A stretch of DNA of 64,000 nucleotides from Anaerolineae bacterium (GTDB lineage Bacteria; Chloroflexota; Anaerolineae; Aggregatilineales; J027). Within the stretch, counting starts at the first letter, position 1. Each line of letters opens with the position of its first letter. Shown here in pieces: positions 10,747 through 26,445 of this stretch. The stretch is taken from contig JAIOHL010000282.1 in assembly GCA_019913005.1 (NCBI GenBank), forward strand, positions 1 through 64,000, read 5' to 3'. The notes beneath the pieces were generated by a model. The model saw nothing but the letters and a program-made list of their open reading frames with translations, did not search any database and was not told where the DNA came from. The position numbers were made by a program, and so were the translations under genes.

Positions 10747-10807
10747 GTAGGGTAAGAACCGTGCGCCTTGCCGTATCGCTACGGTAGGTTTCACAGTTCT
10801 CCCCTCC

Positions 10808-10841
10808 GAACCGGACATGCAACTTTCACTGCATCCGGCTC
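10808..10841 (-). ncRNA. Group II intron domain V
   Basis: The minus-strand sequence from 10841 begins GAGCCGGATGCAGTGAAAGT and continues to GTCCGGTTC at 10808. It has the AGC catalytic triad, a GAAA-type tetraloop and a two-part stem. It lies between the maturase gene and domain VI, as expected. Confidence 0.93.
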
Positions 10842-10853
10842 TCCCATTTTCCC

Positions 10854-12654
10854 TTAGTCAGTTGTTTTAGGCTTCAGTCGTCCAGCATGTAAATCAAGAT
10901 GACAGCGGCGACATAGCACCATTGTCTTGCGTTGCCTTTCCATCATATGGCGTTCCCATGACGCTTTTCCTGTGAGGTCTGAGCCTACGTACATGATGGA
11001 CTTCAAACGGGCCATCTTGTGACCCACACCATTCACACCGCCTAGCGTTGATGCGCTGCCCTAGTTCGGTGCGAGTGCGGTAGTGCCATGTCGTGGGCCG
11101 ACGGTCTAGGTTGCCATAGGTGATAGGGGTGCGTTTGAGTTGTTTGGTGGAGGACACCAAGACATACTCTTTGACACGCCCATCCGCCCTCGTATGGGAA
11201 ATCCCATAGCGGTTCTTACCCCGTCGCAGACTGTGGGCCACTTGGCTCACCGTGATCTGGCGTTTGTGCGCCAGCGTCTTAAAGAAACTGACGCTTGCCA
11301 ACCAGAGGAGGCGACTTGCCATTTTGGACAAGTTGTCCGCTAGGGCGTAGTAGTTGAGAAATCCCGTCAGTTCAGCATTGTAGATTTTGAGGATTTCCAA
11401 TTCGCTGAGATTGAGTAGACCCGCTCGGTGTTGGCCCTTCCAATGCTGCCATTCCCCATAGGTTTGGGCAAAGGCGATACATTTGTCATGCGGCATGAGT
11501 AACGCGAGGTGGTAGGTACAGGTGCGTTTGGTATATACCCGCCCGTGTTTGTCACGGACTTTAAGGCGTTTGTCCGCCCGCCAGCGTTTGATGTCATAGC
11601 CCAGAAAACGGATACGTTGACGAGCATTGGTGATGAGGGTCTTCTCTTCGGAGAGTTCGAGGTGAAGCTGAGTATGGAGAAACTCACTGAGCCATGCCTT
11701 AAGATGCAGTGCATCGGCTTTACTCCCTATGACACCCATCACAAAGTCATCGGCATAACGACAGTAATGCAACCGACGAAAGTTGTCATCTTGGGGGTCG
11801 TGGGCTGGCAGGGCCAATTGTTGTTGGTGAAGGGCTTTATATTCAGTCCAATCACCCGTCACGCAGGCTCGCTGCCGCGCTTTGCGCTTGAGATGTTTAA
11901 CGTGCATGTACTCTGAGGTGTAACGGCGGTGCTTGCCCCGATTGAACTGAGCAATCTGTCGTTCCATAGCCTGATCTAACTCATTGAGATAGATGTTTGA
12001 CAAGATGGGACTGAGATTCCCTCCTTGTGGCGTGTCGGAATAGCTTTTGTGATAGTGCCACGCTTCCATATAGCCCACCTTCAGGAATTGTTCAATCAGA
12101 TGGAGAAACCGTTTGTCCGTGATACGTTGACTCAGAATCCGCAGCAGGGTCGCGTGTTCGAGGTGGTCAAAGAATCCCCGAATGTCGCCTTCCACCCACC
12201 ACCGCACGCCGCGCATCTGTTTGACCTGTTCTAGCGCCGTGTGGCAACTGCGCTGGGGGCGAAACCCATGTGACTTCGCCGAGAACGTTGGCTCATAGAT
12301 GGCCTCCAACAGCAAACGCACCACCGTTTGCAGCAGCTTATCCTCAAAACACGGAATACCAATGGGGCGTTGTTTGCCATTGGCTTTGGGAATATAGACC
12401 CGGCGTACAGGTTTAGGCCTATAGCGTGCAGCTTTTAAGTCCTCAATCATCCGCTGGATGCGTTCGATGCCTGTACCATCTATCGTCGCCCCATCTATTC
12501 CGGCAGTCATGTTGCCCGGATGGGCGGCGATTTGTTCATAGGCCATCAGCCAGAGGTTGAGGTTATAGAGTTTTGGAAACAACTGGTCAAACTGGACGGT
12601 TGGCTTCCTTGCCATCCGACTAAGCATTGTCAGCACTACGGTTGGTTCTTGCAC
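10854..12654 (-). CDS. ltrA: Group II intron reverse transcriptase/maturase, HNH domain frameshifted
   Basis: The GTG start at 12654 has GAGGAG 7 bases upstream. RT domains are in order: the start region AGIDGATIDG, RPIGIPCFEDKLLQTVVRLL, FRPQRSCHTALEQV, TPQGGNLSPILSNIYL and the catalytic CRYADDFVMG near residue 299. A maturase (X) domain follows (LTGFLNYYALADN, SFFKTLAHK). The C-terminus begins an HNH endonuclease (RRCEWCGSQDGPFEVHHVRRL), then the frame slips and ends in unrelated sequence at 10894. The lost half (TGKASWERHMMERQRKTMV, then LCRRCHLDLHAGRL) is intact in the next frame to 10854. One indel near 11000 explains this. RT and splicing functions look whole; second-strand cleavage is probably lost unless this is a read error. 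Confidence 0.9.
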
Positions 12655-13689: not shown

Positions 13690-13965
13690 TTAGACAACGC
13701 GCTCTCTAAATCCAAAGATTTCGGATAGCTTGACCTTCATATAGGATTGATAGGGCACATCCCGTTTCAAGGCTTCGCTCCTAATTCTGTCCAACAGAGA
13801 TTTTGGGAGTCGCAGAGAAATGGTTTCAGTAGAAGGCTTTAAGTTGCGGAATTGAATTGGCTCGGTCACTTCCTGCATATGCTCTACCATATCGTGAGTT
13901 GCCCAAAAATCACGCTCTTGGGCTTCAGAAATAAAGTGTGGAATGGGTTTGAGTGCTTGATTCAT
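13690..13965 (-). CDS. brnA: BrnA-type CopG antitoxin
   Basis: Residues 1-50 carry the toxin-binding segment typical of the family (PIPHFISEAQERDFWATHD). A ribbon-helix-helix DNA-binding part follows: ETISLRLPKSLLDRIRSEAL, then KRDVPYQSYMKVKLSE. It begins with an ATGA overlap at the stop of the toxin gene, so toxin comes first and antitoxin second, as in BrnTA. Together with BrnT it should repress its own promoter. It probably neutralises the RelE-fold RNase BrnT. Confidence 0.88.
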   Translation of the reverse strand: MNQALKPIPHFISEAQERDFWATHDMVEHMQEVTEPIQFRNLKPSTETISLRLPKSLLDRIRSEALKRDVPYQSYMKVKLSEIFGFRERVV

Positions 13966-14291
13966 GCGGCCTCCTGTTCTAGCTTTTGTTCAAATCGCTG
14001 GCGCTCCCGTGTTTTACTTTGGTCTCTGGCTGAAATCACCCGAATACGGTTATGGCGAAGGGTAAAAAATACGGCTAATTTTCGACCTTCGTCTGTGATC
14101 CCCAAAATGCCATAACGCTCTTCAGTTTGCGAGTGGATGGGATCGTAAAAAATGACTTGAGGTTGATTGAGGAACACTTCCTCGGCCTCTTTTGGCGTCA
14201 CATCATGTCTGGCTTGATTTTTAGTTTGATTGCCTTGATCCCAGTCAAACCCCTCACACTCGGCTAACAGATCAGCGATGGATTGCTTCAT
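13962..14291 (-). CDS. brnT: BrnT-family type II toxin (ribonuclease)
   Basis: The protein has the BrnT layout: an early FDWDQGNQTKNQARHDVTPK, EAEEVFLNQPQVIFYDP, TEERYGILGITDEGRKLAVF, then TLRHNRIRVISARDQSKTRE. BrnT toxins have a RelE-like fold and cleave RNA. The W-D-x-GN-x3-K and final ISAR motifs are present, so the toxin looks active. It has its own promoter with a dyad over the -10 box. It probably helps keep the element in the cell. Confidence 0.92.
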   Translation of the reverse strand: MKQSIADLLAECEGFDWDQGNQTKNQARHDVTPKEAEEVFLNQPQVIFYDPIHSQTEERYGILGITDEGRKLAVFFTLRHNRIRVISARDQSKTRERQRFEQKLEQEAA

Positions 14292-14708: not shown

Positions 14709-15152
14709 GTGTCAGGTGGCACTTGTGACACCGGAAAGGGAGAGGTGAAAAAAGAACGTTTAAGGCAGCAATATCTGTTCTGGCTGGATATGAACCAACC
14801 TGACGATGTGGCATTGGCAGACAAAATTGCTGAACTTAAAGCCCAGCGTAAATTTGCCAAAACGATTCGGGATGGGATTCGACTTATTGAAGATTTGCGG
14901 GCAGGGCGACTTGATGTTTTACTGGCTTTGTTCCCTTGGGTCACAGACCATTTGAAATCGCCGTTGTATGGCAATGAACTTGCTGCCGCGCTAGAACAAT
15001 TCCAACAAGTGGTTATCAATGGGCTAGGTAACACCGCTTCTTTTCCCCAACTCAATGAATTCTCTGTACCAGAAGCCAAAACAATCTTCAACGAAACAGA
15101 AGCCATTCAGCGGTCAGTGTTCAATACCCTCGCGTCACTTGAAGATTTTTAA
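14709..15152 (+). CDS. Hypothetical helical element protein
   Basis: The reading frame is open from a GTG at 14709; a second in-frame GTG at 14745 follows GGGAGAG, so the start is uncertain. The protein is mostly helical with KKERLRQQYLFWLDMNQPDD and KTIRDGIRLIEDLRAGRLDV, and ends in LASLEDF. The basic N-terminus and helical build would suit a DNA-binding or accessory replication role, but I recognise no family. It is the only rightward gene in this stretch and ends right before a strong hairpin. Confidence 0.6.
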   Translation: MSGGTCDTGKGEVKKERLRQQYLFWLDMNQPDDVALADKIAELKAQRKFAKTIRDGIRLIEDLRAGRLDVLLALFPWVTDHLKSPLYGNELAAALEQFQQVVINGLGNTASFPQLNEFSVPEAKTIFNETEAIQRSVFNTLASLEDF

Positions 15153-15156
15153 AAGA

Positions 15157-15182
15157 GGGGTTACGGGATGTCCCGTAACCCC
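15157..15182. terminator. Perfect 12-bp hairpin between convergent genes
   Basis: GGGGTTACGGGA and TCCCGTAACCCC form a perfect stem with a 2-base TG loop. T-rich sequence lies on the left side (ATTTTTAAAAG), so it best fits a terminator for the leftward DUF2958 gene, and it may also stop the rightward gene ending at 15152. Confidence 0.75.
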
Positions 15183-15193
15183 TTCAGAATGGC

Positions 15194-15511
15194 TCACTGC
15201 TTATACCACCTCGCGTGTTGGCAGAGCAGTTCGCACAGTGGGGTCGGCTCAAAGTAGTAATCACGCTCCACTGCCAGCCCAAACGCGCCTTTCACCTGCC
15301 GCAATTCTCGTAGCGAGAAGTAACCAAATTCTGGCTCTTGGATTACCGCAAGGCCAAAACATAGGTCTGTTCCGTCAAATTCGGACACATACCATGTGCC
15401 CGGCCCGTCGGGGGTGAAGAATTTGACTAAGGCAAGGGCGTTCACGCCCTGCGCTTCGGTTGCCCCAATTTTGGGCAGGCGATTTTGGAGTTCGGGGGTT
15501 AAGAGTTGCAT
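15194..15511 (-). CDS. DUF2958-domain protein, short form
   Basis: Nearly the whole 105-residue protein is a DUF2958 domain: LLTPELQNRLPKIGATEAQG, ALVKFFTPDGPGTWYVSEFD, DLCFGLAVIQEPEFGYFSLR, then LGLAVE-like FGLAVERDYYFEPTPL. It is clearly a paralogue of the C-terminal part of the gene at 9640. Its role is unknown; the domain is common in plasmids and integrative elements. It is read leftward towards the strong hairpin at 15157-15182. Confidence 0.85.
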   Translation of the reverse strand: MQLLTPELQNRLPKIGATEAQGVNALALVKFFTPDGPGTWYVSEFDGTDLCFGLAVIQEPEFGYFSLRELRQVKGAFGLAVERDYYFEPTPLCELLCQHARWYKQ

Positions 15512-15544
15512 GTTAATTCCTTTCTGCGGCTCTCACACCTAACC

Positions 15545-16330
15545 CGCTGGTGCGTCCGCACCTATCGGTGCTGCACTCGCACGCGCAACCTGTCATCGTC
15601 GAGTGCTCTTGCACCCGACTTGATAGGTGAGAACGAGTGCTATCTTCGCCGTGCGACGCACCAGCGAAGGGGGGTCAGGGCTTGGATTTCATTGGCCGCT
15701 AAGGGTAACGTGGGTTTGGGAGCAGTCCCCCGCCTATTCGCCGCAAAATACAAAATCCACGCCGCCCCAAGCGGCGTGTCCTTTGCCCACCGCTTGGCGG
15801 TGGGAGCGCGGCCTTCGGAAGAGTCGAGAGAGGGAGAAGCCGCGCAAGGCGCTGTCGGGCGCTGGCCCGACTACCAATGCCGTTTTTGGTCGCCTGCCGC
15901 ATCAGGCAGTGCGGCCAAAATAGCCCGCCGGTCACACGTATGGTTAGTTGAGGCTATCGCTTTTTGTGATAGACGTGTGACCGTGTGGGCTAAGGTGTTG
16001 GTAGTCGGGGCATGAAGGGACAGCTTTTTGTCCATTCAAGCCTCGACAGCGCCGCAGATTCAAACGAGGAGGGAAGACCATTATGTAGAGCCAGCCAGCA
16101 AGGGAAAAGCTGGCTGTGAGGCGAACAATGGGCCAATGACGACGTGTAGAAGCTGCTACGCTCTCTCGTGGTTTGGCGAGGCTCGATGCCGCTGCCAAAC
16201 CAAAAGCACCCCTTACCAGCGTAGATGGTAGGGTGTGCGGGCATTGATGGTAAGGCCAGTGGTCATTCATATGGTAGGGTTGGTGGCAAGGTAACAGAGT
16301 TAGTTCTGGGCCACTTCCCTACCCGCCTTG
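15545..16330. other. Hairpin-rich region without a convincing gene (candidate origin or structured RNA)
   Basis: Six-frame openings here have no protein-like composition. Instead there is a series of inverted repeats. Examples are GCTGGTGCGTC(C)GCAC with GTGCGACGCACCAGC at about 15550-15665, CACGCCGC/GCGGCGTG at 15758-15778, CCCACCGC/GCGGTGGG at 15786-15804 and GTCGGGC/GCCCGAC at 15854-15871. Further right are GGTCACACGT (15930-15939) with ACGTGTGACC (15973-15982), nested over CTATC/GATAG and flanked by AGCCC/GGGCT, then CAGCCAGC/GCTGGCTG near 16095-16120 and TGGTTTGGC (16169-16177) with GCCAAACCA (16194-16202). It adjoins a primase gene, so an origin, oriT or large structured RNA are all possible. 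Confidence 0.6.
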
Positions 16331-16506
16331 CTGTACCGCTCCAACTTTAATTCCAAAAAATCAAAGGTCGTTACAAAAACATTTTTCGGCGAATATGTCT
16401 TTTGATGTAGAGGGTAGACCTTTGATGTTGATTGTGCCGACTGAAGGGCGTTGTTCCGGCGTGCCTCTGGAAATATGGTGAGATTTTTAGTAGGCTAGGC
16501 TTGGCT

Positions 16507-16806
16507 ATGGAACTCAGCGCCTTCACCAAAAACGGCCCGGTCATTCTGGCACACGCAGCGGTACAGCAAATGAAAACGCACGGCCTTGCCCCTTTCCATC
16601 TGCTAGACACTCTGGAATACGGGTGTGAAGTCGGGTCGCCTGTCATGGGCTTACACCAGTTTGTAGGTTGTTTTGACGGCACAACCCAAGTCCATGTGCT
16701 TGCGGCCCAAACACTGAAACACACCACTTCCCTAGCAGTGGCAACCGTCAAAGTTTTGACATGTTGGGTCTCCCCGCTCGACTCACAAGCCCAACAATTG
16801 AGCTAA
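16507..16806 (+). CDS. Possible DUF4258-like small protein
   Basis: From ATG at 16507 the frame reads HAAVQQMKTHGLAPFHLLDT, then GLHQFVGCFDGTTQVHVLAA, then SLAVATVKVLTCW. The spacing of an HA..QM..HGL start, a strand pair and a closing VATVKV resembles DUF4258 or RelE-like small proteins. No ribosome site is clear and an in-frame GTG at 16432 could also start it. It converges on the primase gene and overlaps its end by 24 bases. It may be a small toxin-like protein or a chance opening. Confidence 0.35.
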   Translation: MELSAFTKNGPVILAHAAVQQMKTHGLAPFHLLDTLEYGCEVGSPVMGLHQFVGCFDGTTQVHVLAAQTLKHTTSLAVATVKVLTCWVSPLDSQAQQLS

Positions 16807-17787
16807 ATCGGTGATGGTCGCGGTAAAGCTCCTATCCTGATGGAGCACTCGTTCTCGGTACAGTGACCAAAAATCAATGAGGCTTCCCCCGCCACACCCC
16901 GCCTGACAACTCCAAAAGTTGCGCTCGGCGTCCACCCCAAAGGATTGGTGCTGGTCGTCGTGAAACGGGCAAAATCCCCAATTTTTGCCATCTAACTCCA
17001 CATATCGGCTCACGAAATCTAAGACCGAAATGGCGGCTTTAATGCGCTCAGAGAGGGGTGCGTGAGCGTCAACGGGCTTCGTCACAAATGGCATTGTAAC
17101 GACGGTTCGCTTTTCTGATTCAGGCACTTCACACAGCAGTGTTTCAAAAAGACCCTGTGGCACGCGCTCGGCGTAAGCTAGGAGAGCAAGCTGCTCGCGG
17201 ATAGTGGATGCTAAAGGCGCTCCATCCGGTGCCTGAAAGCCGAACCGCTTCCCCGGTTGGCCTGCCACCTTGACGCGGCGGTGAAAACCTAGCGGCAAGC
17301 GAATGAGTGAGCCGGGTTTACTTGCTTCAAGGCGTTCCTGCTTGGGATAAATCTCAATCTTGCGCTGCTGCTGCGTAGGGAGGTCAAAACCTGCCCGCAT
17401 GAGCAGTGCCTTTGCAAAACTGCGGGCATCTTTACCCGACACAGGTTCACCAAAAAATGACCACACATGCCCACCTCGTCTACTCTGTTCCAGATAGAGC
17501 GGTATTGTGCTGGTCATGGCGAAAGTAATCAAGGCTTGCCAAAGGTCGTCTTGATCAGCGTCTATCGCCATCCAGTGGGCGGTGTTCTCAAGACTCAAGG
17601 CATATGTCCCAAGAGTCAGGCTGCCATGTAGGTGTTGGGTGAGCAAATCCAGCGTGACAGGCAATTCTCGATAGACATACCGGGCTGCCAGTTGTTCGGC
17701 GTATATGTCTAGTCGCGGGAAAAACAGGACACGAAACGCTTCTAGTATAGTTGGGTCAATGGGTGGATTTGGGCGCTCGCTCATCAT
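16783..17787 (-). CDS. AEP (TOTE-type) primase with C-terminal CHC2 zinc finger
   Basis: The N-terminal two thirds match archaeo-eukaryotic primases of the TOTE branch: WMAIDADQDDLWQAL with the catalytic Asp pair, YLEQSRRGGHVWSFFGEPV, then KIEIYPKQERLE and SLIRLPLGFHRRVK. Residues about 262-320 form a CHC2 zinc finger as in DnaG: GFCPFHDDQHQSFGVD then FWSCQAGCGGGSLIDFW. An AEP core joined to a bacterial DnaG-type zinc finger should prime or extend DNA in element replication. There is no helicase domain in the chain. It lies beside the hairpin-rich region, which would fit an origin. Confidence 0.85.
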   Translation of the reverse strand: MMSERPNPPIDPTILEAFRVLFFPRLDIYAEQLAARYVYRELPVTLDLLTQHLHGSLTLGTYALSLENTAHWMAIDADQDDLWQALITFAMTSTIPLYLEQSRRGGHVWSFFGEPVSGKDARSFAKALLMRAGFDLPTQQQRKIEIYPKQERLEASKPGSLIRLPLGFHRRVKVAGQPGKRFGFQAPDGAPLASTIREQLALLAYAERVPQGLFETLLCEVPESEKRTVVTMPFVTKPVDAHAPLSERIKAAISVLDFVSRYVELDGKNWGFCPFHDDQHQSFGVDAERNFWSCQAGCGGGSLIDFWSLYRERVLHQDRSFTATITDLAQLLGL

Positions 17788-17789
17788 TG

Positions 17790-18197
17790 GATTCTCTCAC
17801 TTTCAGTTACCCCTACAATTTCTTGGCACGACCAATTTCACCTTATAAAAAGGCTCTGCCTTTTTAAGCGAACCACTCCCCTGCCCGCGTTTCTAGTCTT
17901 CCCTCCTGTGCATGTCTTAAGCGAAGCTCCGCTTCGAGATTTTTAAATCTCAAGTTGGAGCTTCTGGTTCGCCTGAAGTGTCTTCGACAGGTTTTCGACC
18001 TGCTTATCCTGAAAGTTGCCTTCCAAGAAACAGTTTGCCAGTGTAGGTTTTTAAGAGACGGTCTAGGCCGTTGCCCCCGCGCCGCAACGGTAGCGTGCCA
18101 CTTCCCTCTTTAGGAGGGATAGCGGTTCATTAAAGACACGAAAAAAGGGTGGCTGCAAGGAGCTAAAGTCTTGCCAGCAAGAGAGCAAGACTTGCGG
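17790..18197. other. Gene-free, structured intergenic region next to the partition genes
   Basis: About 400 bases with no supported gene. AAAAAGGC-TCT-GCCTTTTT (17847-17865) is a bidirectional terminator-like hairpin. GAAGCTCC (17923-17930) pairs with GGAGCTTC (17957-17964) around a nested GAGATTT/AAATCTC stem (17936-17951). CCGTTGC (18068-18074) pairs with GCAACGG (18084-18090). CTTGC-type repeats begin at the right end. This suits a partition site or a control RNA. Confidence 0.5.
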
Positions 18198-18241
18198 CAT
18201 TCTTGCTGGGTGGCGTTCTTGCAATCTTGCTTGCTTGCATT
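18198..18241. repeat. Iteron-like 44-bp repeat, copy 1
   Basis: This 44-base unit matches 18510-18553 at all but three positions. It contains several CTTGC or CTTGCA units at irregular spacing. It lies right behind the stop codon of the RHH protein gene, where a centromere or operator site for a ParA/RHH system could lie. Confidence 0.7.
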
Positions 18242-18720
18242 TACGGGTCTGGTTTGACCAAATTGCGCTCCAAAATACTGTCTGCACCATGCTGTTCATA
18301 ATCCCAAATCAAATACCCAACGGCACACACCAAAATATCAGTGGTTTTTAACTTCTTCCCGGTGCGTTTCTTGACCTCGTATTCAAGATCGTCAATTTTT
18401 TCGAGTAGCTCTGGTGGATAGCGAAAATTGGTGTTTTTGGTGTTCTTCAGTGCTAGTAAAGTCCCAATAAAATCTTGCATTCTTGCATTCTTGCTTGAAA
18501 GAAAATCCACATTCTTGCTTGGTGGCATTCCTGCAATCTTGCTTGCTTGCATTCCTGCTTTTTGCCCGTGCTGAGATTGACTCATGGAAGGCATAACAGT
18601 CGCAAGCGTATTTTTTCCAGCGGACAAAGGCGGGGAGACTTCAGGGGCCACGAAGACCTCCTGCACTTGGGTCACAGGTTTAAAGAATGGGCTATCAGCT
18701 AAACCGGATTTTCTTGTCAT
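18241..18720 (-). CDS. Partition partner-like RHH DNA-binding protein with repeat-encoded linker
   Basis: The ATG at 18720 overlaps the parA stop (ATGA). The N-terminal half is an unordered linker whose middle (MQASKIAGMPPSKNVDFL, then SSKNARMQD) is encoded by the same CAAGAATG-type DNA repeats that occur downstream of the gene. The C-terminal half looks like a ribbon-helix-helix: NTNFRYPPELLEKIDDLEYE then LKTTDILVCAVGYLIWDYEQ. Position after ParA and small size fit a ParG/ParB-type centromere-binding protein. The DNA repeats inside the gene may themselves be binding sites. Confidence 0.7.
   Translation of the reverse strand: MTRKSGLADSPFFKPVTQVQEVFVAPEVSPPLSAGKNTLATVMPSMSQSQHGQKAGMQASKIAGMPPSKNVDFLSSKNARMQDFIGTLLALKNTKNTNFRYPPELLEKIDDLEYEVKKRTGKKLKTTDILVCAVGYLIWDYEQHGADSILERNLVKPDP
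18510..18553. repeat. Iteron-like 44-bp repeat, copy 2 (inside a gene)
   Basis: This is the second copy of the 44-base unit at 18198-18241, here read as part of the RHH protein coding region. More CTTGCATT units precede it (from 18475). The combined array covers both the coding linker and the 3' flank. Confidence 0.7.
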
Positions 18721-19481
18721 CGGCGGGCAATCACTTCCTTAATCAGTGCTTTATACGCGATGGCCCCGCTGCTGTTGGGGGAGTGGGCAAAAATGTGGGT
18801 ATGATTGGAATGGGCCTCTTCTAAGGACACATTTTTCGGGATTTTCGTCTGGAATACCACCTCTCCAAAATGGCTGCGCAATTGTTGCTCCACATCCTTT
18901 GACACATTGGTATTCTCAGCAAAGGTGCATAACACGCCTAGAATTTCGAGCGATGGATTCAACTGCGTTTGTTTGACCATGCCAATCGTTTCTTGCAATT
19001 GCACCAAACCTGTTAGCGCAAAAAAGGCGGTTGACACGGGAATAATGAGCCGATCACTGGCGACAAATGAATTGATGGTGAGCAAGCCTAATGAGGGGGC
19101 ATTATCCATAATGATATAGTCGTAACGGTCTTTGATCTGGTCAATCGCTTGTTTCAAACGCGCATTGCGGTTGTCAAAGGCTTGGGCTAATTCCAAATCC
19201 ACGCCGGAAAGCCGGATGTGAGCAGGGACAAAATCAAGGTTGGGGAAAGCCGTTGGTTGTACGACTGAAGTCAATGGCGCAAAACGAATGACAACATTAA
19301 ACAGGGATTTTTCAAGCTCAATCTCAATGTTGGGATGGATAAAAACTTGGGTCGTGTTGGCTTGGGGGTCAACATCAATGAGCAGCACTTTATAACCCTC
19401 GAGGGATAGGCCAGCGGCTAGATTAATGGCGGTGGTACTCTTGGCAACCCCACCTTTCTGATTGGCAATACATATGACCAT
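18717..19481 (-). CDS. parA: ParA-family partition ATPase
   Basis: The deviant Walker A motif at the start is NQKGGVAKSTTAINLAAGL and the A' motif is VLLIDVDPQANTT. The B motif is YDYIIMDNAPSLGLLTIN. Length and lack of an N-terminal HTH match small ParA proteins of the type Ib kind, which pair with RHH centromere binders. It lies between two RHH genes, 2 bases after the first and overlapping the second. It probably moves or holds copies of the element at cell division. Confidence 0.93.
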   Translation of the reverse strand: MVICIANQKGGVAKSTTAINLAAGLSLEGYKVLLIDVDPQANTTQVFIHPNIEIELEKSLFNVVIRFAPLTSVVQPTAFPNLDFVPAHIRLSGVDLELAQAFDNRNARLKQAIDQIKDRYDYIIMDNAPSLGLLTINSFVASDRLIIPVSTAFFALTGLVQLQETIGMVKQTQLNPSLEILGVLCTFAENTNVSKDVEQQLRSHFGEVVFQTKIPKNVSLEEAHSNHTHIFAHSPNSSGAIAYKALIKEVIARR

Positions 19482-22080: not shown

Positions 22081-23115
22081 TTAAGGTTGGAGAAGTTTTA
22101 GATGGGGTGCGGTAGTCAGCATCTGTTGGGCATAGCTTTGAAAGGCGGGCGTGCCATACTCCTCCAAGCAAAACGGCTTATCTATATGCGGAAAATACCA
22201 AATGGGTTTGGCTAAAATCGTCGCTGGATTAACCCATGCACTGCGGGTAAAGAGAAAGTAGGCTGCACCTCCGGCGCTGGTCACTTCGGAGCGCATATTG
22301 TGAAACCGCTGCTCTGAGCCTGCCACAATCACCAAAAAACGTCCGGTCTTAAACGTGAGTTGGTTTTGATAGCCTTTGGAATACACCAGATGCACACCGG
22401 GGGACACTTTATCCCTCCCAAACCGCGAATTGGACTCTGTGCCATTATCTAACTCCACTAGAAACGGCACACGGTAGCCTTTGGTTTCACCCTCAGCCTT
22501 TGCAAACAGCGAAAAGAGCCCGTCGGGTTGTACCAGTTTTTCTTTGCGTTCCCCTTGTGAGTCAAGATAGGGGATAGAGGTGGAAAATAATCGCACCAAC
22601 TCATCCTGTCCATGCCATGTCTCAAGGCGATAACGCGGATGGTTGAACGTAGCAACTTCCATCGTGTGACGAAACTCGTTGAGAAGTAGGTCATGCGTGA
22701 CTTTGCTCCAACGCGGGGTCGAGCGCCAACGCAGTTCATCTATGGGTGTGTCTAGCTGTTTCGCTACTTCTTCAGCGCCAGCGGTATCTAACCAAACAAT
22801 CGGTTCAGGCACACGATACAACTCTTGGCGCGTTGGGCGCTGTAGGCAGCCATTATGGTAGAGCAGACTAATGCGGCGCTGCGCGTTGCGTTTGTTGGCT
22901 TCACCCGGAAAGAACCAGCGGTGAATCTGATCAACCGATACCATGCCATCATAGCGGTAGATCGTAAGTAGGATTGTTTTATCCCGCTGCGTGAGACGCA
23001 AACCGGGAGGTTGCTTGGCCCGCACATAGGCGGGCAAGCGTTCCTCATTCGACTTTTTGGGTTGAATTGGTTTTTGGTTCATGGTGGTTTGGTCGAATAA
23101 CAGCCTTAATTTCAT
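22081..23115 (-). CDS. Replication-relaxation family protein
   Basis: An N-terminal winged-helix part (LTQRDKTILLTIYRYDGMVS, then VDQIHRWFFPGEANKRNAQR) is followed by a nuclease-fold-like domain with WSKVTHDLLLNEFRHTMEVA, KLVQPDGLFSL and FLVELDNGTESNSRFGRDKV. This layout fits the replication-relaxation family (PF13814) found in plasmids and integrative elements beside TraG-like genes. The D...ELD pattern resembles a PD-(D/E)XK-type core. The start at 23115 is not certain; an in-frame ATG lies at 23082. The gene is in the leftward transfer operon. Confidence 0.85.
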   Translation of the reverse strand: MKLRLLFDQTTMNQKPIQPKKSNEERLPAYVRAKQPPGLRLTQRDKTILLTIYRYDGMVSVDQIHRWFFPGEANKRNAQRRISLLYHNGCLQRPTRQELYRVPEPIVWLDTAGAEEVAKQLDTPIDELRWRSTPRWSKVTHDLLLNEFRHTMEVATFNHPRYRLETWHGQDELVRLFSTSIPYLDSQGERKEKLVQPDGLFSLFAKAEGETKGYRVPFLVELDNGTESNSRFGRDKVSPGVHLVYSKGYQNQLTFKTGRFLVIVAGSEQRFHNMRSEVTSAGGAAYFLFTRSAWVNPATILAKPIWYFPHIDKPFCLEEYGTPAFQSYAQQMLTTAPHLKLLQP

Positions 23116-25747: not shown

Positions 25748-26296
25748 CTAGACGGCGTTACTTGCATGGACGGTAGCCACGACTTTGGTGCGGTCTGTCA
25801 GGGCGGCTTCAAGGCTGTCCATGTCGAGCGTACAGTCCTCGGCGTGAATATCCACCCAGCGCACCACGAGGTCATAATCTTCGGCAATTCGTAGCCACGG
25901 GGCGATATTGGCGTCGTGATCCATCATTGTCAGTACGATTTCATCGCCCGGCTGAAGGGTTTTGCCGATGGCCCGTGACAATGCAAATGAAAGGGTGGTC
26001 ATGTTGGGGCCAAATACGATTTCGTGATAATCTGGGGCATTTAGAAAATCGGCAGCAATCTGACGGGCGGCCTCGACCATCGCATCGTTGCGCTGACTGC
26101 TAGCAAACGCCCCGCCTGAATTGGCGTTCATGGTGGTGTAGTAGTTGCTGACGGCATCCATTACTCGTTGTGAGACCTGTGTCCCCGCCGGATTATCAAA
26201 GTGAACGGGCAGATGACCGCCATTGACGGGACGATTGAGGGCGGGAAATTGGGAACGTAGGGATTCAATAAGTTGTGGATTAAGTGGTAATGACAT
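25748..26296 (-). pseudogene. Class V aminotransferase (cysteine desulfurase-like), 3'-truncated
   Basis: From ATG at 26296 (AGGA upstream) the protein matches the first part of NifS/Csd-like PLP enzymes: HFDNPAGTQVSQRVMDAV, NANSGGAFASSQRNDAMVEA, EIVFGPNMTTLSFALSRAIG, then MMDHDANIAPWLRIA and TKVVATVHASNAV. Here the conserved line should go on to the PLP-binding Lys, but a stop follows at 25748, after about 183 of some 400 residues. The PLP-lysine half is absent from the window, so the product cannot be an active enzyme. The break coincides with the edge of the mobile-gene region. Confidence 0.85.
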
Positions 26297-26445
26297 CCAG
26301 ATTATTCCTATGGGTTGAACTTCACCAATAAGCAGCGAGTGATAAAGGTAAGGGTAAGACATCCCTCAAATTCGAACTGGTTTTTGCAAGTTGCGCGTAA
26401 TAGTATCTTAGCTTGTTGGTTGATGCGAATGAGAAGAGAGTATTT

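Follow-up and report, generated by a model that had tools for sequence, protein, structure and literature searches.

A candidate large structured noncoding RNA in the maintenance module of Anaerolineae mobile elements

The window studied here, a 64 kb stretch of Anaerolineae DNA analysed as a whole, contains a conserved structured element at about 15537-16286 on the + strand, possibly extending to 16395. We consider it moderately likely that this element specifies a large structured noncoding RNA of 0.45-0.85 kb, transcribed from the + strand, in the maintenance module of Anaerolineae integrative/conjugative elements. Judged from its fold and its setting, it is likely to be a large RNA not described before, required by the mobile element for its own upkeep, and we put at about even the chance that it typifies an undescribed RNA class, a regular component of Anaerolineae conjugative elements with a function in their replication, partition or transfer. 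GOLLD and ROOL, the most familiar of the large structured RNAs in bacterial mobile elements, are phage-derived and still lack a function. If our reading is right, the present element would be a large RNA serving the maintenance of conjugative elements, not of phages, and an RNA class tied to the conjugative replication/partition block would offer a concrete setting for asking what such RNAs do.

The first-pass annotation had described about 0.8 kb of dense hairpins with no convincing gene at 15545-16330, and both observations hold. The interval contains 11 perfect 7-bp hairpins (loop 3-40); 300 dinucleotide shuffles averaged 1.6 and reached 6 at most, and 786-base blocks across the whole window averaged 2.0 and reached 10 at most. 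The + strand of 15515-16360 folds at -419.7 kcal/mol where its shuffles average -328 (z -9.7), the - strand of the same segment has a z of -10.4 against its own shuffles, and a scan of the entire 64 kb window places the best 240-base fold at 15751-15990 (z -10.0). Two close copies are available for comparison, namely a second copy in the same genome on contig C69 (94% identical) and one in a sister species of the same genus, G001 (89% identical). Between these copies the open reading frames across the interval, such as 15506-16015, are disrupted by single-base indels while the fold is retained, and a coding gene was thus ruled out. The limits first drawn for the hairpin-rich stretch needed adjustment: the structured part is real, but it starts near 15537 and possibly ends at 16395. 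A DUF2958 gene and a primase gene flank the element in all three close copies, with the C69 copy having an insertion just past the structured part and a more distant primase. The consensus fold of the close trio has 258 pairs on the + strand, 4 of them with two-sided changes, along with about 13 one-sided G.U-compatible changes; the corresponding figures for the - strand are 235 pairs, 3 with two-sided changes and about 4 one-sided changes (both one-sided counts being read from tables). The parts of the element, all on the + strand, are as follows:

15537-16286, +: main body of the structured element, candidate large noncoding RNA (z -9.7, close copies, alifold with 258 pairs, covariation of the nine-sequence core)
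15545-15666, +: 5' domain, a long hairpin closed by 12 perfect base pairs (15545-15556 / 15655-15666), near-invariant in the three close copies
15735-15749, +: possible overall closing helix, 5' arm, partner 16381-16395
15758-15846, +: three consecutive GC-rich hairpins (15758-15778, 15786-15804, 15806-15846) directly 5' of the core
15848-16053, +: conserved junction core (nine loci; 99% of cells paired, 24 changed on both sides)
15848-15859, +: outer helix, 5' arm, partner 16042-16053 (nine-sequence alignment)
15866-15881, +: inner helix, 5' arm CCCGACUACCAAUGCC, partner 15994-16009 (consensus folding, covariation)
15994-16009, +: inner helix, 3' arm GGUGUUGGUAGUCGGG, partner 15866-15881 (consensus folding, covariation)
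16013-16038, +: small hairpin between the inner and outer helices (consensus fold; equivalents in other loci)
16042-16053, +: outer helix, 3' arm, partner 15848-15859 (nine-sequence alignment)
16064-16238, +: 3' domain of hairpins (in G001, UA to CG at 16172/16199 and AU to CG at 16208/16236)
16381-16395, +: 3' arm of the possible overall closing helix, partner 15735-15749

The possible closing helix is complementary at 14 of 15 positions in the window and at all 15 in G001, and its 3' arm is absent from the C69 copy. Three near-repeats of ATGGTAGGG, spaced at roughly 22-26 bases, are discernible by eye in the 3'-terminal part of the element (16225-16280). No sigma-70-like promoter was found near the 5' end, though Chloroflexota promoters may differ from that consensus. 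The window copy shows no clear terminator of its own, and clear terminator-like hairpins lie 3' of the element in two distant relatives, G003 and G717.

With the window copy as query, BLAST and a covariance model recovered no relatives beyond the close copies in genomes of the class and phylum. The first distant member, in G003, was found by examining the neighbourhoods of primase relatives: a strongly folding region at the start of a contig there was matched in its core by covariance model R1 (21.3 bits, E 0.0003; 11.7 bits on the - strand). A second conserved segment near the primase, termed element 2 below and 80% identical between the window and G003, then led to G716, where the R1 match, a weak one (14.2 bits), adjoins this segment and is oriented as expected. 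The G003 and G716 copies also fold far better than shuffles, and the distant relatives likewise have hairpins 5' of the core; no counterpart of the 5' domain at 15545-15666 was traced in these distant loci. A search with the motif GTCGRGCN{4,8}SCCGACTRCC, drawn from the window-type, G003 and G716 copies, returned four more loci that have the downstream arms too: a second copy in G716 (G716b) and one each in G717, G734 and G740. The half-motif by itself is about as frequent as its reversed control, and therefore only loci with all arms were retained, of which we estimate that fewer than 0.01 are expected by chance. This brings the total to nine loci, all in one Chloroflexota order. Phage, plasmid and viral-contig collections yielded no relatives by sequence or motif, nor did about 180 genomes drawn from across the phylum when scanned with the full pattern, whose gap range of 155-185 misses the window-type spacing. 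Two leads were discarded in the course of this work: a 25-base BLAST match in G181 (L008), which by eye lies inside a CO-dehydrogenase-like coding sequence and looks like chance, and covariance model R2, which had the inner domain excised, misplaced the core and was useless. The motif and the covariation data presented here will let others search Chloroflexota, where RNA work is scarce.

The core sequences from the window, C69, G001, G003, G716 (two copies), G717, G734 and G740 share one layout, with an outer helix, a mini-hairpin, an inner helix enclosing sub-hairpins and a closing hairpin. Covariation among homologous elements, proposed initially as a check, is present. Across 22 pairs in the nine sequences, aligned with MAFFT with one small misplacement in G716 and with three of the nine being near-identical copies, 99.0% of cells are standard pairs versus 86.6% on shuffling; 24 cells are changed on both sides versus a shuffled mean of 8.0, a figure reached by none of 500 shuffles, and the covariation score is 0.379 versus 0.127. 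Pairing falls to 32-55% when one arm is shifted by one to three columns. The 10 tested pairs of the outer helix are 100% paired in the nine sequences, with both-side changes at 4 of them; its positions 1-6 lie outside the search motif, and all 24 of their cells are standard in the four loci found by motif only. The inner helix, CCGACURCC / GGYAGUCGG, is common to all nine sequences. The mini-hairpin by the outer helix is GGC..GCC in G003 and the window type; most others have GCC..GGC instead, a swap that preserves pairing. Internal sub-hairpins occur in every fold but align poorly, and helices beyond the two core helices are less well tested by covariation. Across the nine loci, then, the structure of the junction core is far better conserved than its sequence. 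The GC-rich character of the region, its many palindromes and the variation of peripheral hairpins between members might invite a view of it as a functionless pile-up of terminators, protein-binding palindromes and remnants of small insertions. Nested long-range helices that covary over nine loci beside the same kinds of neighbours already speak against this, and we regard it as highly improbable.

Several features distinguish the two strands. Counted over seven divergent sequences whose G+T is near 0.5, and within stems that are predicted for both strands, G.U pairs number 26 on the + strand versus 6 on the - strand (p 0.0005) in a test that was devised post hoc and is based on predicted folds; a first trial had given 13:2 for the + strand. 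The + strand also has the lower folding energy in nine of nine sequences, four GNRA/UNCG loops versus none, and a fraction of unpaired purines of 0.58 versus 0.42. G.T pairs also form in single-stranded DNA. Taken from predicted folds, the G.U bias, the loop types and the purine bias appear to favour an RNA read from the + strand.

The genomic setting bears directly on what such an RNA might do. The neighbours of the element in the window are:

15194-15511, -: DUF2958 protein (PF11171), divergently oriented neighbour, retained in all three close copies
16507-16806, +: small protein of 99 aa, downstream of the element on the same strand and overlapping the 3' end of the primase gene
16783-17787, -: AEP-TOTE/CHC2 primase (PF22548 AEP-TOTE and PF01807 CHC2 zinc finger)
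17840-18240, no strand assigned: element 2, sequence-conserved noncoding DNA, candidate origin, partition or transfer site beside the ParA pair
18241-18720, -: small protein, partner of ParA, similar to its L063 and L073 counterparts
18717-19481, -: ParA-type ATPase
22081-23115, -: Replic_Relax protein (PF13814), candidate relaxase

The primase noted earlier beside the interval is thus confirmed, and the companion remark that the interval lies outside any recognised operon is to be corrected, as the element sits within a replication/partition/transfer block of a mobile element that also carries two TraG/HerA-like ATPases. Primase, ParA, Replic_Relax or TraG-like genes recur beside the other members: primase, ParA, a small gene and a serine recombinase at the first G716 copy and in G717; two Replic_Relax genes to one side of the second G716 copy, with ParA and primase to its other side; ParA and a Phage_rep_O-like protein in G734; Replic_Relax and TraG-like genes in G740; and primase and an AAA ATPase in G003, where no ParA was seen. 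In the loci with an adjacent ParA (both G716 copies, G717, G734), the element is oriented towards the ParA operon. Element 2 consists, in order, of a terminator-like hairpin, conserved DNA with the palindrome GCCGTTGC..CGCCGCAACGG, and iteron-like repeats. The site is seen in the window type, G003 and G716, its core being kept in the last. It was rejected as a second structured RNA, its fold being no better than shuffles. Thus, element 2 conserves sequence without a fold, whereas the structured element conserves its fold over its sequence and cannot be aligned by BLAST between the window and G003.

We infer from position alone that the candidate RNA may have a role in replication or partition. 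The + strand of the element would be transcribed, the transcript would fold as an RNA with the junction core, and it would act in trans or in cis in replication, copy control or partition, probably at the iteron-bearing element 2 or close to it, serving there as a scaffold or regulator. A partial parallel is the ColE1-type RNA II preprimer, a structured RNA of about 0.5 kb read beside the replication site; it resembles the present element in size and in adjoining such a site, but differs in that here a terminator-like hairpin separates the structured element from element 2 in G003 and G717.

The main rival is that the element works as structured DNA, either a single-strand origin (sso) or an origin of transfer, whose + strand folds when single-stranded during rolling-circle replication or transfer and recruits the primase or host RNA polymerase for second-strand synthesis. 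The presence of Replic_Relax and an AEP primase in the same mobile element, with the primase adjoining, fits this, as do the proximity of a candidate origin/partition site and the location of the G716b and G740 copies between or beside transfer and rep/par genes. The sso1 of ICEBs1, about 200 bp with three stem-loops, is orientation-specific and depends on structure as much as on sequence (PMC4595007); it and the plasmid single-strand origins resemble our element in being orientation-specific stem-loops of a conjugative element conserved in structure more than sequence. Strand-specific stem-loops would also be expected of a single-strand origin. However, the present fold is much larger, at 450-850 nt, nested, multi-branched and G.U-rich on one strand, a 26:6 G.U bias and GNRA-type loops are expected more of RNA than of DNA, and the nearby sequence-conserved element 2 is the likelier DNA site. 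No blastn match linked the element to known origins among 72,556 plasmids, a weak result since sso structure can persist without sequence. On balance an origin of this type seems possible but unlikely.

A cis-acting leader or antisense RNA is a less probable alternative still, and a doubtful one. The + transcript might run into the 99-aa ORF and exert control by base-pairing, or the - strand might be a long leader of the DUF2958 gene. The ORF has no Pfam match, and its third-codon-position bias relative to G001 (28:6:6) suggests that it is a real, conserved protein. Perfectly complementary segments of 12-13 nt tie the element and its flank to the ORF/primase region (15879-15890/16525-16536, 12/12; 16328-16340/16557-16569, 13/13; 15629-15641/16844-16856, 13/13) and are identical in G001, but agreement among members of the close trio does not count as independent evidence. 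Furthermore, a non-exhaustive look saw no copy of DUF2958 or the ORF beside the element in G003 or the other-family loci, and the + strand preference of the fold speaks against a DUF2958 leader.

Returning to the favoured reading of a large + strand noncoding RNA, two properties expected of such an RNA were found, namely covariation among divergent loci and strand-specific pairing of the RNA type. The first-pass annotation had also raised a mobile-element RNA like GOLLD, ROOL, HEARO or OLE; the kind survives, given the fold kept via compensatory changes and the RNA-like strand preference, but the families do not. Rfam 15 gave no match to the window copy at the gathering score or at permissive E-values, nor to six other homologous loci even at permissive E-values, and hence we do not assign the element to any of these four. 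GOLLD is large (many over 800 nt), ornate, borne by mobile elements and of unknown function, ROOL is a large structured mobile-element RNA with no known protein partner, and both are located in phages or prophages, often near tRNA islands (PMC12286853). The present element is akin to GOLLD in size, complexity and carriage by mobile elements, and to ROOL as a large structured RNA of mobile elements; it differs from both in lacking an Rfam match and a phage context, with no tRNA genes found in the window and with primase, ParA, Replic_Relax and TraG-like genes, neighbours of a conjugative element, in their place. A keyword search of open-access papers found no title or abstract describing the element. 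Group I and group II intron models likewise had no match at 15100-16800.

The sole group II match in the window, Rfam Intron_gpII at 10747-10843, belongs to a group II intron at 10747-12654 (-) with a reverse transcriptase/maturase at 10894-12654 that shows a weak HNH match. A BrnT toxin / CopG-type antitoxin pair is encoded at 13690-14291 (-). On the other side, at 25748-26362 (-), the match to class V aminotransferases covers only positions 1-151 of the 371 in the profile, so that this gene may be truncated where the mobile element ends.
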